A stretch of 64,000 nt of DNA, from positions 1 through 64,000 of the forward strand of contig JAQSCW010000050.1 in the NCBI GenBank assembly GCA_029945625.1, in the 5' to 3' direction. Position 1 is the stretch's first letter, and each line of letters opens with the position of its first letter. The notes under the pieces are model-generated. The model did no database searches. It was given only the letters and a program-made list of their open reading frames with translations, and was not told the origin of the DNA. Below are positions 1 through 15,276 of the stretch, piece after piece. Made by a program: the position numbers and the translations under genes. Source of the stretch: a bacterium. Its GTDB lineage: Bacteria > Bacteroidota > Bacteroidia > B-17B0 > Aurantibacillaceae.

Positions 1-63
1 CGTTCGGGCGGGCCCGCCCGACCGAACGACGCAATAAGATACAATTCGGTCGTTCGGGCGGGG
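1..63. repeat. GC-rich palindromic repeat, left copy
   Basis: Arms at 13-29 and 45-62 are inverted complements, pairing at 15 of 17 positions around a 15-nt AT-rich loop. Bases 1-12 are identical to 51-62, so the window seems to open inside the end of a further copy. The 17-nt left arm recurs exactly at 451-467. The hairpin has no T-run after it, so it is not a terminator. It directly abuts a tRNA-Arg fragment. Confidence 0.75.
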
Positions 64-75
64 ATAGAACGGAAG
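62..75 (+). pseudogene. tRNA-Arg internal fragment (D-arm/anticodon-stem side)
   Basis: These 14 bases are identical to 117-130 of the intact tRNA-Arg just downstream. The fragment begins immediately after the palindrome arm. It starts at the same tRNA position where the other fragment (430-446) stops, so both breaks lie at one point in the D loop. Confidence 0.6.
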
Positions 76-100
76 AATGTACTTATAATTATATAATATT

Positions 101-172
101 GGCACCATAGTTCAATGGATAGAACGGAAGTTTCCTAAACTTCAGATCTAGGTTCGATTCCTAGTGGAGCCA
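101..172 (+). tRNA. tRNA-Arg, anticodon CCT
   Basis: A full cloverleaf can be folded. D stem 110-113/122-125. Anticodon stem 127-131/139-143, with a seven-base loop and CCT at 134-136. T stem 148-152/160-164, with loop TTCGATT. Acceptor 101-107/165-171. A172 is the discriminator, followed by CA. The fourth acceptor pair is an A-A mismatch (104/168). The anticodon reads AGG. The gene is followed 21 nt later by a GIY-YIG nuclease gene. Confidence 0.9.
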
Positions 173-193
173 CAAAGATTTATTCATACCCAA

Positions 194-439
194 ATGTACT
201 ATGCATACGTACTGCGAAGCATTAAGGACCCCCATTATCATTACAAGGGACATTGCGAGAATTTAGAAAAGCGTCTAATTCAACACAATTCGGGATATAC
301 TATTTCAATAAGAAACTATGTCCCGTTCAAAATTGTCTATTTCGAAGAATTCGAAAACAAAGAAGATGCCATTAGTCGTGAACGATATTTTAAGACTTCT
401 GCAGGCAGAAGGTTCCTGAAATCGAAACTGGCACCGTAG
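194..439 (+). CDS. Small GIY-YIG family nuclease
   Basis: This 81-residue protein matches the single-domain GIY-YIG endonucleases (YhbQ/UPF0213-like) in length and layout. It opens MYYAYVLRS. The second half of the signature reads YKG instead of YIG. The conserved Arg and His follow in NLEKRLIQH, and the probable catalytic Glu lies in the FENKEDAISRERYF helix. The C-terminal GRRFLKSKL is typical. ATG 194 is preferred; an in-frame GTG at 164 would overlap the tRNA. The last three residues (LAP) and the stop are encoded by a tRNA-Arg 5' fragment, so the reading frame ends inside tRNA-derived sequence. Such proteins are thought to cleave DNA, but the cellular role is unknown. The family assignment is secure; activity is uncertain because of the altered motif. 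Confidence 0.85.
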   Translation: MYYAYVLRSIKDPHYHYKGHCENLEKRLIQHNSGYTISIRNYVPFKIVYFEEFENKEDAISRERYFKTSAGRRFLKSKLAP

Positions 440-446
440 TTCAATG
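430..446 (+). pseudogene. tRNA-Arg 5' fragment
   Basis: It matches tRNA positions 101-117 with one difference (A107 is G here). It contains the stop codon of the GIY-YIG gene at 437-439, and four bases later the second palindrome begins. Together with 62-75 it would rebuild the tRNA 5' half up to position 130. Confidence 0.65.
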
Positions 447-450
447 CTTG

Positions 451-498
451 CCCGCCCGACCGAACGAGAGAGTAATTTTTTGTTCGGTCGTTCGAGCG
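451..498. repeat. GC-rich palindromic repeat, right copy
   Basis: The left arm 451-467 is identical to 13-29. The right arm 483-498 differs by one base from the corresponding arm of the left copy. The loop is AT-rich and unrelated to the first, so the arms rather than the loop are conserved. The rest of the gap to 712 is AT-rich with no supported gene. Confidence 0.75.
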
Positions 499-712
499 AA
501 ATAAACATTAAAAAAGCAAGTATTTAGTGTTTTGCCTGATTTTTGACAATAAATTTTGTTGACATGAAGGGGGTAAACATCAAAAAAACGAATTATTTTG
601 ATGTTTATTATAAAGGCACGTTTCCCCATTAAGTTATATTAATTAACTTAAACGCTTAGAGCAGCAATGTGGAAGACTCCGGCCTTTTACCTTTAACTGA
701 ACTAAACTTCAA

Positions 713-8363: not shown

Positions 8364-11300
8364 ATGGTAAAGTACCTGATTTCCATTTCACTTCGCAACA
8401 GATTTGTAGTTCTGTTAATTTCTGCCATGTTATTTGCATGGGGGATTTATTCTGTAAAACAAAATCCTATTGATGCTATACCTGATCTTTCTGAAAATCA
8501 GGTGATCGTGTTCACTGAATGGATGGGGCGCAGTCCACAGGTGATTGAAGATCAAATAACGTATCCACTGGTTACAAATCTGCAGGGCATCCCAAAAATT
8601 AAAAACATTCGCGGGTCTTCCATGTTTGGGATGAGTTTTGTGTATATCATTTTTGAAGACAATGTTGATATTTATTGGGCGCGTACAAGGGTGATGGAAC
8701 GGTTGAATTATGCACAACGTTTATTACCTCAAAATGTAAGTCCCACTCTAGGACCCGACGGAACCGGCGTTGGTCATGTATTTTGGTATACGCTGGATGC
8801 CAAAAGCATGGATCTTGGCGAGCAAAGAGCCCTACAGGATTGGTATGTCAAATTTGCACTTCAAAATGTACCGGGCGTAAGTGAAGTGGCATCATTTGGA
8901 GGTTTTGAAAAACAATATCAGGTGATCATAGATCCGGACAAACTTAACTACTATAAAGTATCACTTATGGATGTCCTCAAATCCATTCGCGCCAATAACA
9001 ACGATGTTGGAGGCCGAAAATTTGAGATGAGCCAGATGGGTTATATTGTGAGAGGTCAGGGTTACATTAAGGGCAGCACTGATATTGAGAACATTGCAGT
9101 GAGTACAGCAAATTCCATTCCCATTAAAATAAAAGATATTGCCGCCGTGCAAATGGGTGGTGACTTACGTTTGGGCATATTTGATCAAAATGGCGAGGGT
9201 GAGGTGGTGGGGGGCATTGTGGTAATGCGCTACGGTGAAAATGCTGATAAAGTAATTCATGCTATCAAAGAAAAAATAAAGGACGTGGAAAAGGGTCTTC
9301 CAGATGGTGTAAAGATCAAAACCGCTTATGACAGAAGTTCACTTATTGAGGAAGCGATAGATTCGGTAAAAGGAACATTGACGGAGGAAATGATCACAGT
9401 CTCTATTGTTGTATTAATTTTTCTTTTTCACTGGCGCAGTGCTCTAATTATTCTTATTCAACTTCCTATTTCTGTAGCCACCAGTTTTATTTTACTGCAA
9501 GCATTTAATGTGTCATCTAATATTATGTCCTTAACCGGCATTGCTTTAGCTGTTGGTGTTGTTGTAGATGATGGCATTGTGATGGTAGAAAATGCCTATC
9601 GACATTTGTCGGAAAAAAACAAGAACACTAAAATAGAAAAGGCAGATCATTTAAGAATCATTGAAGAATCATCCAATCAGGTTGGTCCCGGCGTTTTCTT
9701 TTCAACTCTGGTTGTCATCGCTTCCTTTTTACCTGTGTTCATGCTCACGGGGATGGAAGGAAAATTATTTTCACCGTTGGCTTGGACAAAAACATTTATT
9801 CTTTTGGTCGATGCAGTTCTCGCCATCACCCTTGCACCGGTTTTAATTTCCTTTTTCTTGAAGGGAAGGTTGAAACCCGAAAATCAAAATCCCGTGACCC
9901 GCATTCTTGAAAAGTTCTACACACCAATTCTAGTATGGTGTTTAAACTGGCGCAAAACAACCATCGGTATCAATATCATCGCTCTTGCGCTAAGTGTTCC
10001 TATTATGATGGGACTCGGCACCGAATTTATGCCACCTTTGGATGAGGGTTCTATTTTATTTATGCCCGTTACACTTCCCGATGTTTCTAATTCGGAAGTA
10101 AAGCGGATCCTTCAAGTGCAGGATAATCTCATAAAAGCTGTTCCCGAAGTCGAAAATGTGCTCGGTAAGGCCGGTAGGGCCAGCACGGCCACTGATAACT
10201 CACCCATCAGTATGATCGAGACCATCGTTTTACTGAAACCAAAATCAACGTGGCGCAAGGGTCTTTCAAAAAATGATATTGTAAATGAGCTTAATTCAAA
10301 ATTGCAGATTCCCGGTGTCATTAATGGCTTTACGCAGCCAATTATTAATCGCATCAATATGCTTTCAACCGGAATCAGAACTGATGTGGGTATTAAAGTA
10401 TACGGACAACAGATTGACACTATCTATCAACTGGCTGAAAGAATAAAAAAACAATTGGTCGGTATTGATGGGGTTAAGGACTTATACGTGGAGCCGATTA
10501 CCGGCGGAAAATACCTTGATGTGAAAATCAACAGAGACGAGATTGCTCGGTACGGATTAAGCGTTGATGATGTGAACATGGTTGTTGAAAGTGCTTTAGG
10601 CGGGATGAATATTGGTACAACCATAGAAGGCAGGCAACGTTTCAAAATAAATGCCCGTTACGGTCAAGATTTCAGGAACGATCTCTCTAAATTAGAGCGA
10701 CTGCAAATTCAAACACTCAAATTCGGTACTATCCCCTTGTCATCTGTTGCAGACATCGTGATCTCTGAAGGGCCGCCAATGATCAACTCCGAAAACGCCA
10801 TGTTACGCGGCACCGTATTGTTTAATGTGAGAGAACGAGATCTGGGCGGAACTGTTGCCGATGCGCGGAGCAAGTTGGACAAGTTGATGAAAAAATTGCC
10901 TAAGGGCTATTATATTGAATGGAGCGGCCAATATGAAAATCAGATCCGCGCAAATCACACCTTACTCATGATCTTGCCAATTGTGATCATCATTATTCTC
11001 ATGGTCCTTTATTTTACTTATCATTCCCTCAAGGAGGCGCTTATTACCATGATCACCGTGCCTTTTGCATTAATTGGCGGAGTATTCATGGTGTATTTTT
11101 ACGGTGTAAATCTTTCCGTGGCCGTTGCAGTAGGATTCATTGCTCTTTTTGGGATTGCCATTGAAACAGCCATGCTGATGACCATATACCTAAACCAGGC
11201 TATGCGGGAACTAGTTGACTTACGTGGGAATTCAATTGATACTATCAGTAATGCCAATATTAGGGAGTACGTAATAGAAGGCGCAGCAAAAAGGCTCCGG

Positions 11301-11513
11301 CCCAAATTAATGACGGTGTGCGTTTCATTATTTGGCCTTATACCCATTCTTTGGGCAAAAGGGGTGGGAAGTGATGTCATGTTGCCCATTACTATTCCCC
11401 TGATAGGTGGACTTATTACCTCTACGATCTATGTATTATTTGTAACTCCTGTAGTTTTTGAAATACAAAAACAACAAGAATTAAAACGGAATGGAAAAAT
11501 TGATTTAATCTAA
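8364..11513 (+). CDS. cusA: CusA-type heavy-metal RND efflux pump
   Basis: This 1049-residue inner-membrane proton-driven pump exports metal ions through a CusCBA-type tripartite channel. The three pore methionines of E. coli CusA (573, 623, 672) have counterparts at 567 (LFMPV), 617 (SMIET) and 666 (NMLSTGI), with the same 50- and 49-residue spacing, which points to Cu(I)/Ag(I) rather than Zn/Co. Proton-relay residues are also kept: VVVDDGIVMVENA (TM4), GIAIETAMLM and RLRPKLMTV. The length is normal for the HME family. It heads cusA-cusC-cusB-cusB. No copper regulator is present in the window. Confidence 0.96.
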   Translation: MVKYLISISLRNRFVVLLISAMLFAWGIYSVKQNPIDAIPDLSENQVIVFTEWMGRSPQVIEDQITYPLVTNLQGIPKIKNIRGSSMFGMSFVYIIFEDNVDIYWARTRVMERLNYAQRLLPQNVSPTLGPDGTGVGHVFWYTLDAKSMDLGEQRALQDWYVKFALQNVPGVSEVASFGGFEKQYQVIIDPDKLNYYKVSLMDVLKSIRANNNDVGGRKFEMSQMGYIVRGQGYIKGSTDIENIAVSTANSIPIKIKDIAAVQMGGDLRLGIFDQNGEGEVVGGIVVMRYGENADKVIHAIKEKIKDVEKGLPDGVKIKTAYDRSSLIEEAIDSVKGTLTEEMITVSIVVLIFLFHWRSALIILIQLPISVATSFILLQAFNVSSNIMSLTGIALAVGVVVDDGIVMVENAYRHLSEKNKNTKIEKADHLRIIEESSNQVGPGVFFSTLVVIASFLPVFMLTGMEGKLFSPLAWTKTFILLVDAVLAITLAPVLISFFLKGRLKPENQNPVTRILEKFYTPILVWCLNWRKTTIGINIIALALSVPIMMGLGTEFMPPLDEGSILFMPVTLPDVSNSEVKRILQVQDNLIKAVPEVENVLGKAGRASTATDNSPISMIETIVLLKPKSTWRKGLSKNDIVNELNSKLQIPGVINGFTQPIINRINMLSTGIRTDVGIKVYGQQIDTIYQLAERIKKQLVGIDGVKDLYVEPITGGKYLDVKINRDEIARYGLSVDDVNMVVESALGGMNIGTTIEGRQRFKINARYGQDFRNDLSKLERLQIQTLKFGTIPLSSVADIVISEGPPMINSENAMLRGTVLFNVRERDLGGTVADARSKLDKLMKKLPKGYYIEWSGQYENQIRANHTLLMILPIVIIIILMVLYFTYHSLKEALITMITVPFALIGGVFMVYFYGVNLSVAVAVGFIALFGIAIETAMLMTIYLNQAMRELVDLRGNSIDTISNANIREYVIEGAAKRLRPKLMTVCVSLFGLIPILWAKGVGSDVMLPITIPLIGGLITSTIYVLFVTPVVFEIQKQQELKRNGKIDLI

Positions 11514-11524
11514 GAAATAATAAG

Positions 11525-12793
11525 ATGAAGCTTGCAAAACGAAGTCAACTTACCTTGTTCCTGATTAGCCCTCTTTTTTTGAGTTCAGTGTTTGCACAGA
11601 TATTGCCGCTGGATAGTGTTCTTGCGGCCATTGAAAGCAGAAATCCGGAAATAAAAATGTTCGATGCGCAGATTAAGGCCATGAATTCGTATGCCACGGG
11701 AGCGAAAAGCTGGGACGCACCACAAGTGGCTACAGGATTTTTTATGACACCCTACAATAGGAGTATGTGGCAACCTGACCCTTCTATGTATAGTTCGGGA
11801 ATGGGCTCGTACATGATTTCAGTTCAACAAATGATTCCCAACGCAGGAAAACTCAATGCTAACAAAACTTACATGGAAAGCATGAGCACTGTGGAAACTC
11901 AAAATAAATTGTTTGTTCGAAACAAATTGTTTGCTGATGCAAAAACGAGTTATTACGAACTAGTGGTCCTCCTGAAAAAACAAAAAGTACTTAGCGAATC
12001 GGAAACCCTGTTAAAATTTGTGATTCAAACCACCGAATTGAGATACCCGTATAATCAGGAAAAATTGGGAAGCATTTACAAGGGAAAGGCGCAGTTGGCA
12101 GAAATTCAATCTATGCTCCTAATGATTCGTAACGAAGCGAATCAAAAAGAAGTGATGCTAAATACTCTGATGAACAGAAATAAAACTGCGGCCATGAATC
12201 CGGATACTTCATATGTTATTAAAAATTACGAATTGGATTTAGCTGACACCACGATGATCTCAACTCAGCGAAGTGACTTGAAAGCCATTGATAATACCAT
12301 CACTTCTCTAAAAGCCAAACAAAAGTTCGAGGATGCTAAGCGACTCCCTGATTTTGGATTGAAGTATGATCACATGTTTACTTTTGGTAATCAGCCTCAA
12401 TTGTTTTCGTTGATGGGTATGATCACTATTCCTATTGCTCCCTGGTCGAGCAAGATGTACAAATCGTCGGTAACTGGCTTAGGTTATGAAATGCAGGCCC
12501 TGCAAAGCCAAAAGCAAAGTATTGTGAATGAAGCTAACGGCCAATTACAGGCCTTAAAAATTAAAATAGGTTTTCAAAAACAGCAATTGATCCTATATGA
12601 AAAGAGTATATTGCCGGCTTTGCGTAAGAACTATCAGGTACTTTTACTGTCGTATGAACAAAACACGGAAGACCTATTTATGGTGCTCGATGCGATTCAA
12701 ATGCTAAAAATGAATCAGCTCGCTTACCTTGATCAGTTGGAACAACTCTTAACGCTACAAACTGAATATGAAAAAGAAATTGAACGCCGCTAG
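11525..12793 (+). CDS. TolC-family outer-membrane efflux protein (CusC role)
   Basis: The 422-residue protein has a signal peptide ending near SSVFAQ and long helices typical of OEP proteins. It forms the outer-membrane channel for the CusA pump encoded 11 bp upstream. Residues 74-103 hold six methionines (positions 74, 81, 88, 93, 97, 103) in a Tyr/Ser/Pro-rich context, likely in an early beta-strand or loop, and could contact Cu(I). It overlaps the next gene by 26 bp, implying translational coupling. The family is secure and copper specificity is inferred. Confidence 0.9.
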   Translation: MKLAKRSQLTLFLISPLFLSSVFAQILPLDSVLAAIESRNPEIKMFDAQIKAMNSYATGAKSWDAPQVATGFFMTPYNRSMWQPDPSMYSSGMGSYMISVQQMIPNAGKLNANKTYMESMSTVETQNKLFVRNKLFADAKTSYYELVVLLKKQKVLSESETLLKFVIQTTELRYPYNQEKLGSIYKGKAQLAEIQSMLLMIRNEANQKEVMLNTLMNRNKTAAMNPDTSYVIKNYELDLADTTMISTQRSDLKAIDNTITSLKAKQKFEDAKRLPDFGLKYDHMFTFGNQPQLFSLMGMITIPIAPWSSKMYKSSVTGLGYEMQALQSQKQSIVNEANGQLQALKIKIGFQKQQLILYEKSILPALRKNYQVLLLSYEQNTEDLFMVLDAIQMLKMNQLAYLDQLEQLLTLQTEYEKEIERR

Positions 12794-14051
12794 GCTTATC
12801 CTTGTTTTTCTTTCAGTGATCCTGAATTTTGTTTCTTGCACAGATTCGGGGAAAGATAGCGCAAAAGAACGCGAACAAATAATTGACGGAAAAGGGAAAA
12901 CCTATACTTGTCCCATGCATCCCGAAATTATACGTTCAGAGCCGGGCAGGTGCCCTATTTGTCATATGTTTCTTGTGGAAATTCCGTCTCCCTCCAATAC
13001 AATTCTTCAATTGCAAATTGATGATCTGATAAAACCTACCGACGAATTTGTGATTTCAGAAATTAAGACGGTTAGTCCCGAGCAATTAGAATTACCGGTC
13101 ACTTTTAGGGCCAATGGGTACATTAGTTATGATATGCAAAATGTTTATTCTATTTCATCGCGTTATGAAGGAAGGATAGAAAAACTTTATATCAAATACA
13201 ATTTCCAAAAAATAGAAAAGGGCCAAGTTATTTTTGAGATTTACAGTCCTGAATTAGTGACTGCGCAACAAGATTTTATTTTTATACTTAAAAACGATAA
13301 AGATAATCAGACTCTTATTGATGCTGCTAAAAAAAAGTTAGAACTCATGGGTATGGTTGAAAATCAAATAGCACAAGTTGCCGCTCTTAAATTGGTCCAA
13401 TATAAGATGCCTGTATATAGTCAAGTTTCCGGTTACATTATCGAAGAAAGTCAAGGTAGAAAAATGGCTACACGGGCTGATAAAGAAATGGGAGGGCAAA
13501 GCACCCTTCCATCAAACCCCGGGAATAAAGATCTTCTCACCAAAGAAGGGCAATACCTAGAAAAAGGCAGCACGGTGTTTAAAGTAATATCTAATAAAAC
13601 TGTTTGGGCAGAACTAAAACTATTTAATGCCGGGCTCAACGTTATTAGAAAGGGAAATGATGTTACTGTATACGTGGATGGGTCAACTCACTCTATTGTT
13701 TCCACTGTTGATCAAATCTTGCCAATATTTACCGAATCAGAAGCCTATCTGACGGCAAGAGTCATTCTTGAGAATAAAGGGGGCGAAATCAAAATTGGAG
13801 CACTTGTTAAATCTGAAATAGTGAGCAGACAGAAATCGGCATTGTGGCTTAAAAAGGAAGCTATTATTGATCTTGGTATTGAAAAAGTGGTGTTCCAAGT
13901 GACCTCTAAAAATTTATTGAAAGTGAAACGAATCCACATCGGTCAGGTTTCCGCTGATATGGTTGAGATTAGAGAGGGTCTCAATAAAGATGACCGGGTT
14001 GCGGCGAATGCAGAATTCTTAATGGATAGTGAAAGTTTTATAAAACAATAA
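12768..14051 (+). CDS. cusB: CusB-type periplasmic adaptor 1 with metal-binding domain
   Basis: This is a 427-residue membrane-fusion protein. A lipobox-like LNFVSC ends the signal, suggesting a lipoprotein. Residues about 44-70 form a heavy-metal-binding domain ([10 protein letters not shown]...PGRCPICHM), in which the usual CGM is CHM. Barrel, lipoyl and hairpin regions of an HlyD/CusB fold follow (GRIEKLYIKYNFQKIEKGQ, SGYIIEESQGR, WAELKLFNAG). It bridges CusA and the outer-membrane channel. The start overlaps the TolC-family gene, and a second adaptor follows after 4 bp, so the two may form mixed hexamers or serve different states of the pump. Confidence 0.92.
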   Translation: MKKKLNAARLILVFLSVILNFVSCTDSGKDSAKEREQIIDGKGKTYTCPMHPEIIRSEPGRCPICHMFLVEIPSPSNTILQLQIDDLIKPTDEFVISEIKTVSPEQLELPVTFRANGYISYDMQNVYSISSRYEGRIEKLYIKYNFQKIEKGQVIFEIYSPELVTAQQDFIFILKNDKDNQTLIDAAKKKLELMGMVENQIAQVAALKLVQYKMPVYSQVSGYIIEESQGRKMATRADKEMGGQSTLPSNPGNKDLLTKEGQYLEKGSTVFKVISNKTVWAELKLFNAGLNVIRKGNDVTVYVDGSTHSIVSTVDQILPIFTESEAYLTARVILENKGGEIKIGALVKSEIVSRQKSALWLKKEAIIDLGIEKVVFQVTSKNLLKVKRIHIGQVSADMVEIREGLNKDDRVAANAEFLMDSESFIKQ

Positions 14052-14055
14052 GAAA

Positions 14056-15276
14056 ATGAAATATATTGCATCAGTAATTCTATTTTCGTTCCTGAGTGGC
14101 ATTGTTCAGATTTCCTGCAAAACAAAGGGGGCAGGGGATTCTATTGAAGAGAACATTTTTTACACATGCTCGATGGATCCGCAGGTCATGGAAAAGAAGC
14201 CCGGCAAATGTCCCATCTGCAAGATGGAACTCACCCGCGTAGAAGTTAGAAAAGAAAATAAGAACACACTTCGGTTTAGTGATTCGCAACTTAAGTTGGC
14301 AAATATCGTTGTTGACACCATCAAACTCATCAGTCTTGTTGATGAAAAGCGGTATACTGCCAAAGTGGTACTGGATGAAAACGAGACTTCAGTAATCAGT
14401 GCCCGGCTGATGGGTAGAATTGACAAATTGAAATTTAAAAGTACGGGAGAGTATATCAAGCAAGGTGATTTGATTTACGAAATGTATAGCGAAGAGCTTA
14501 GTGCCGCACAAAAGGATTATCTGATTGCTAATCAAAGAGTAGCACAATTTAGAGACAAGGCCATTGATTACATTCAACTCTTACAATCAGCTAAACAAAA
14601 ATTACTCCTTTGGGGGATGAATGAGGCGCAAATTGAAAAGCTGGCAAAAGAAAACAAGGTCCCGATTGTCACTCCCTTTTTCAGCCCTGAGCATGGGTAC
14701 ATAATAGAGGTGCTTGCAAAGGAGGGTGACTATGTGGCGCAGGGGCAGAGTTTATTTAAAATCAATTCATTGAAGTCGGTGTGGATCGAAGCGCAATTAT
14801 ACTCCTCTGAAATAAAAGGTATTCACGAAAATCAAGAGGCCATCGTAGAATTTGAAGCCCTTCCTTCGATTGCAAAAAGAAGTAAAATTGATTTTATAAG
14901 TCCGGAGTTACAGCAAGAAAGCAAAGTCAATCTGGTGAGAATTCAACTGAGTAATGAAGATCTCGCCATTGTTCCCGGAATGCTCTCCTCAATTCTGCTC
15001 TCAAGTGCTCAAAAGCAGGCAATAGTACTTCCAATAGATGCAGTTTTGCAAGAGGCGCAGGGAAATACGGTCTGGGTTCAAAATGCTGATAGTACTTTTG
15101 AAAGTCGCATGGTTGTTGTTGGCATTCAGAATAGCAGACAAATTGAGGTCAAAGAAGGTTTAAGAGTAGGAGAAAGAGTGGTGATTTCGGGGGCGTACTT
15201 GATTAACAGTGAATATCATTTAAAAAAAGGAGCAAGTCCAATGGAAGGGCATGATATGAAAGATATGAAAATGTGA
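14056..15276 (+). CDS. cusB: CusB-type periplasmic adaptor 2 with metal-binding domain
   Basis: This is a 406-residue lipoprotein-type adaptor (IVQISC lipobox). The N-terminal heavy-metal-binding domain is altered: YTCSMDPQVM...PGKCPICKMEL, where the His of CPMHP is Asp and CGM is CKM. The adaptor body shows GRIDKLKFKSTGEYIKQGD, HGYIIEVLAKEGDYVAQGQ and GERVVISGAYLINSEYHLKKG. The chain ends in a Met/His tail, EGHDMKDMKM, absent from adaptor 1. It is the last gene of the cus cluster; a convergent cytochrome gene begins 29 bp beyond. The two adaptors differ in their metal sites, which suggests divided labour rather than simple redundancy. Confidence 0.92.
   Translation: MKYIASVILFSFLSGIVQISCKTKGAGDSIEENIFYTCSMDPQVMEKKPGKCPICKMELTRVEVRKENKNTLRFSDSQLKLANIVVDTIKLISLVDEKRYTAKVVLDENETSVISARLMGRIDKLKFKSTGEYIKQGDLIYEMYSEELSAAQKDYLIANQRVAQFRDKAIDYIQLLQSAKQKLLLWGMNEAQIEKLAKENKVPIVTPFFSPEHGYIIEVLAKEGDYVAQGQSLFKINSLKSVWIEAQLYSSEIKGIHENQEAIVEFEALPSIAKRSKIDFISPELQQESKVNLVRIQLSNEDLAIVPGMLSSILLSSAQKQAIVLPIDAVLQEAQGNTVWVQNADSTFESRMVVVGIQNSRQIEVKEGLRVGERVVISGAYLINSEYHLKKGASPMEGHDMKDMKM

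Follow-up and report, generated by a model that had tools for sequence, protein, structure and literature searches.

What is the small element at the start of this contig, and which part of it moves? The window, a stretch of 64,000 nucleotides from a genome of the Aurantibacillaceae (G000), has its base 1 at the end of contig C50, and its first 500 positions hold an intact tRNA-Arg gene, a nuclease gene and broken pieces of the tRNA joined to palindromes. The original prediction was that a palindrome inserts at one fixed point in tRNA-Arg copies, with the nuclease gene belonging to a repeated or mobile unit. The features are as follows.

1..12, + strand: right arm of a further palindrome copy, truncated by the contig end; identical to 51-62
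13..62, + strand: left GC palindrome, CCCGCCCGACCGAACGA ... TCGGTCGTTCGGGCGGG, acting as a plug in the D loop of the broken tRNA-Arg copy on the left; 17-nt arms, 88% complementary
62..75, + strand: tRNA-Arg fragment, bases 17-30; exact match to 117-130
101..173, + strand: intact tRNA-Arg(CCT), called by ARAGORN
194..439, + strand: GIY-YIG nuclease, 81 aa; Pfam PF01541, E 8e-12; catalytic positions conserved; confident GIY-YIG model
430..446, + strand: tRNA-Arg fragment, bases 1-17; match with one mismatch
451..498, + strand: right GC palindrome, 3' of the tRNA fragment 430-446; a copy also ends contig C10, where a further tRNA 1-17 fragment precedes it

The two palindromes bracket the tRNA and the nuclease gene as originally described, and the Pfam match bears out the family given to that gene. 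An 18-nt arm, GCCCGCCCGACCGAACGA, lies at 12-29 and at 450-467; it has three matches in the window with up to 3 mismatches, versus 0 in 100 shuffles. Bases 17-30 of the tRNA come after the left palindrome and bases 1-17 come before the right one, and therefore both palindromes sit at the same point of the D loop, tRNA base 17. The fragments thus meet at one D-loop base as claimed; the left one matches the intact tRNA exactly, and the right one differs from it by a G for A at tRNA position 7. The nuclease probably starts at ATG 194, while its stop codon, TAG 437-439, and its last three codons (L-A-P) are tRNA sequence within the fragment 430-446. The intact tRNA-Arg(CCT) is the only one in G000, where the search for it gave a single match. 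Further into the window, at 8364-15276, there is a run of genes that, from their sequences only, resembles a heavy-metal efflux system (a CusA-like pump, an outer membrane factor and adaptor proteins).

The nuclease is a single GIY-YIG domain, for which AlphaFold2 gives a mean pLDDT of 92.8. It is a member of the GIY-YIG nuclease superfamily, as the domain carries the conserved Tyr, Tyr-x-Gly, Arg and Glu; Y5, Y17, G19, R27 and E63 are invariant in 21 sequences. The closest solved structures are UPF0213 proteins and Slx1. Because Slx1 cuts branched DNA, it is possible that the protein cuts cruciforms rather than a sequence.

Where is the rest of the left broken tRNA? Contig C10 of G000 ends in a third copy of the palindrome, preceded by the tRNA-Arg 5' fragment (bases 1-17) GGCACCGTAGTTGAATG, and this end adjoins an M1 peptidase gene. 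Since the M1 peptidase gene borders tRNA-Arg(CCT) in relatives (G012, G015, G016, G017, G024 and G028), C10 is the probable left neighbor of the window. The end of C10 is thus very probably the missing left part of the locus, and probably holds the 5' half of the left fragment 62-75. C10 is thus a candidate for the extension to the left of base 1, across a putative join.

G000 has a second locus of the same kind on contig C43, where two tandem, nearly identical units of about 412 bp each precede an intact tRNA-Ser(TGA). Each unit has tRNA-Ser bases 1-13 and 13-36 on either side of an 18-nt insert, as well as further palindromes and a GIY-YIG gene. Close relatives of the window arm are also found elsewhere in G000, scattered between genes and with no link to tRNAs. 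We considered a dispersed palindrome as the sole mobile unit and rejected it, as these relatives of the arm are not at tRNAs. G000 also has a dispersed intergenic palindrome family, AACCCCGCCCGACC-loop-GGTCGTTCGGGCGGGCAC, with arms similar to the window palindrome. Its copies, on contigs C4, C6, C25, C29, C31, C35, C40 and C45 (L026-L034), occur among low-complexity stretches of GGCAGT and CACTAAGG and at contig ends.

How general is the association of the nuclease with tRNA genes? Within the genus (40 genomes), 70 GIY-YIG loci were examined. An intact tRNA lies within 500 nt of 42 of them, in every case on the same strand and in 0 cases on the opposite one; from about 30 tRNAs in 4.1 Mb, the chance of such linkage is about 0.5% per locus. 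Some of the unlinked loci of the genus run into a contig end or have no more than tRNA fragments. Relatives of the nuclease were found in 263 of 392 genomes of Bacteroidota. Among the best 29 loci of the phylum, picked by nuclease score and not by tRNA, 25 have a same-strand tRNA no farther than 900 nt away, and partial copies of that tRNA are present at 24. The layout is also seen in Neomarinimicrobiota (tRNA-Leu) and some Patescibacteria (tRNA-Lys, Thr and others), and the linkage spans many isotypes. In other phyla, 21 of 60 loci are linked to a tRNA; the other 39 have no tRNA nearby, and therefore the tRNA habit is not common to the whole nuclease family. At 51 loci from all phyla with no intact tRNA nearby, a tRNA fragment was found on the same strand in 14 and on the reverse strand in none.

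Rfam, run on 60 loci where no tRNA was called, found two tmRNAs and two broken tRNAs; its few other matches included no intron family. The tmRNAs are about 130 nt (L064) and about 1 kb (L171) from the nuclease. At L064 (G029, contig C8), the GIY-YIG gene is at 1501-1740 and the tmRNA at 1871-2238, both on the minus strand; with this same-strand neighbor, the targets of the nuclease may extend beyond tRNAs. At L111 (Muricauda sp. CP2A), a tRNA-Arg-like copy with a D-loop palindrome comes after the nuclease, and the fetched flanks contain no intact tRNA. Searches of phages, plasmids and viral contigs gave no close homologue that would point to a carrier.

On long contigs, a single intact tRNA stands next to an array of three to five nearly identical units of nuclease plus broken tRNA, with periods of 315-450 bp; across loci, there are one to five units per intact tRNA. 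The prediction that the nuclease is part of a repeated unit is thus supported by the tandem arrays. The unit is a minimal GIY-YIG nuclease gene with a fragment of the putative target-tRNA gene interrupted by a palindrome, beside one intact tRNA, instead of a lone palindrome. Furthermore, the arrangement has a polarity. When the nuclease is downstream of the intact tRNA, 27 fragments beyond the nuclease keep only the 3' end versus 2 with only the 5' end, and when it is upstream, 19 keep only the 5' end versus 1 with only the 3' end (Fisher p 2e-10, which overstates independence, since related loci were counted apart). Such a polarity would be the expected trace of an element that enters a tRNA gene and rebuilds the tRNA. 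The window locus itself breaks the rule, as its right fragment keeps the 5' end of the tRNA only, and about one third of the linked loci have no recognizable far fragment.

The nuclease tree requires 33 changes of tRNA label, compared with 46-53 in 200 shuffles, and within the genus the 14 changes are the minimum for 15 types. The nuclease clades thus track tRNA identity; shared descent at the same locus contributes to this pattern, which alone is no proof of cutting specificity.

What are the palindromes? The palindrome is found in the D loop of tRNA-Arg copies in G010, G012, G014, G016, G022, G024, G028 and G032, and in genomes of other families. A fixed insertion point in tRNA-Arg is thus borne out by the same D-loop position in many species, but this is not a fixed sequence inserting alone. 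The sequence of the plug differs by tRNA and by lineage, and other tRNAs have other palindromes at other loops. In 20 of 22 cases, clean insertion junctions touch a hairpin loop of the tRNA, while the random mean is 11.7 and 2 of 20,000 random draws reach 20. In G001 and G002, all matches of one palindrome pattern are at the nuclease-tRNA locus. We considered whether the palindromes are REP-like mobile elements that enter tRNA loops, with the GIY-YIG protein either mobilizing them or cutting cruciforms formed by the tRNA gene and the palindrome. The preference of the junctions for hairpin loops fits this explanation, as do the similar palindromes scattered in G000 and the presence of Slx1, a branched-DNA nuclease, among the closest solved structures. 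However, those scattered copies are away from tRNAs, the palindrome type of G001 and G002 is restricted to the nuclease locus, and the palindromes vary between tRNAs while the nuclease-tRNA layout persists. We regard this explanation as unlikely.

The site of the element can be found both empty and occupied. In G015, a plain tRNA-Arg(CCT) follows the peptidase gene, while G028 is homologous with G015 up to tRNA base 17, where the palindrome begins. The element is near the peptidase or tRNA-Arg(CCT) gene, in different layouts, in G012, G016, G024, G028 and G032 and, by inference, in G000. The nuclease is decayed by stops, frameshifts or truncation in G038, G010, G024, G028 and G032. Presence and absence at the same locus, together with decay, are expected of a free-standing homing endonuclease gene, and both were found. 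Elsewhere in G015, about 30 bp separate a tRNA-Cys from a palindrome of the CCTGCCTGCCGAC type (L266, contig C24, 32604-33844), with no nuclease called; the palindrome is possibly a remnant.

Could the nuclease and the broken tRNAs with their hairpins instead serve the host, as a selected regulatory or defense module, such as a decoy or sensor of enzymes that cut tRNAs? Such a function would be in keeping with the wide distribution and the conserved catalytic residues, and the same-strand layout would permit shared transcription. It is at odds with the patchy presence at the same locus and the frequent decay of the nuclease, and with layouts and copy numbers that vary and plugs that differ between lineages, so that we consider it quite improbable. 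A simple duplication of the tRNA region, through replication slippage or recombination, would make the nuclease a passenger and the palindromes ordinary debris. It would be expected to produce tandem arrays and partial copies, but it is hardly credible, since one nuclease family recurs at many unrelated tRNAs in several phyla, without exception on the same strand, and since the polarity is fixed and the plugs sit at loops.

The tRNA itself may also have a history. The intact tRNA-Arg(CCT) genes of G000 and G021 are identical at 73 of 73 positions; in the genomes that acetyl-CoA synthetase (76-77%) places nearest to G000, identity in this tRNA is only about 88-90%. These nearest genomes share with the G000 5' fragments a G at tRNA position 7. 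This is only suggestive of import of the tRNA-Arg(CCT) together with the element, where the distance of G021 is taken from 68% peptidase identity, with no acetyl-CoA synthetase match. Recoding of the D loop of the intact tRNA as an escape from cutting was also considered, and rejected, since the D loop is unchanged in the Arg(CCT) copies.

We suggest that the unit is probably a tRNA-targeted selfish element of the homing type that rebuilds the tRNA it enters. From the features observed directly (the anatomy, tRNA linkage, one-intact-copy rule, polarity, tandem arrays, presence and absence, decay, and co-clustering of nuclease and tRNA) we infer cutting of tRNA-gene DNA, a recombination route and a role for the palindrome, in the following mechanism. 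The nuclease would cut the matching intact tRNA gene on a chromosome without the unit. Repair against the tRNA fragment of the unit, or crossover with it, would then insert the unit and rebuild one intact tRNA, leaving the displaced remainder of the tRNA beyond the nuclease gene. A viable product would come from crossover on one side of the plug, and a broken tRNA from crossover on the other; the viability of only one side would explain the polarity. The palindrome plug would keep the remainder nonfunctional, unprocessed as a tRNA and probably uncuttable. Renewed cutting or unequal exchange could subsequently lead to tandem amplification, with later decay of the nuclease. The weak point of this mechanism is how the rebuilt tRNA would be spared from cutting, given its unchanged D loop in the Arg(CCT) copies. 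The departure of the window locus from the polarity, the linked loci that have no far fragment and the failure to find a carrier also speak against it. Changed flanks or tight expression are possible, and weak cutting of the donor, reported for other free-standing GIY-YIG enzymes in work cited in PMC13096335, could have the same effect.

If this proposal is true, a small selfish element that ranks among the commonest in Bacteroidota has been overlooked, with relatives of its nuclease in about two thirds of the sampled genomes, because annotation shows its gene simply as a GIY-YIG nuclease and leaves its remnants unmarked. As a natural drive, it would threaten an essential gene while supplying its repair; it would also be a source of very small tRNA-specific nucleases, and an explanation for some of the tRNA debris and contig breaks in Bacteroidota genomes. 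The predicted target for each nuclease clade makes the specificity directly testable. No description of palindrome-plugged tRNA remnants with a chromosomal GIY-YIG gene was found among the open-access journal papers searched; this kind of element is very common in Bacteroidota and apparently undescribed. We tentatively raise the possibility, on which we stay somewhat doubtful, of a new class of bacterial mobile element, in which minimal nuclease units colonize tRNA genes (perhaps also tmRNA), rebuild the essential tRNA on entry, and use the plugged remnants as homology arms resistant to their own nuclease, as a natural cut-and-rescue drive.

How does the element compare with known systems? Tyrosine-integrase elements that enter tRNA genes leave one intact tRNA and a displaced remnant at the far end. 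The present element resembles them in its site in a tRNA gene, its one intact tRNA and its far remnant, but its unit of 315-450 bp has no integrase and holds only the nuclease and a tRNA fragment, its remnant is plugged by a palindrome, and the duplicated side is either the 5' or the 3' part. REP and REPIN sequences are short palindromes linked to one enzyme gene, RAYT, a Y1 transposase. The tie of short palindromes to one enzyme gene is similar, but here the enzyme is GIY-YIG, not a Y1 transposase, and the palindromes are in tRNA copies and do not form one family. Small UPF0213 (YhbQ-type) GIY-YIG proteins and Slx1, which acts with Slx4 on branched DNA, have the domain in common with the window protein; neither is known for tRNA linkage. 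The closest known system in behavior is SegB, with related free-standing GIY-YIG homing endonucleases of T-even phages. According to PMC13096335, the gene of this GIY-YIG enzyme neighbors tRNA genes of many isotypes, and the enzyme makes its cuts within tRNA genes and brings about tandem amplification through microhomology of the tRNA 5' end with the segB 3' end. The enzyme type, the tRNA-gene neighborhood and the tandem amplification are thus shared; SegB differs in being a phage gene, and its description as considered here mentions neither plugged tRNA remnants nor a one-intact-tRNA rule (PMC13096335). The window protein is, as a further difference, a single 81-aa GIY-YIG domain, and it gave no phage match (tblastn, 1e-3). 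In our own reading, the SegB motif RAWTSGAAC given there would resemble, on the other strand, the T-loop sequence GTTCSAWTY. The element would thus belong among the free-standing homing elements, with a fair chance of deserving its own class.
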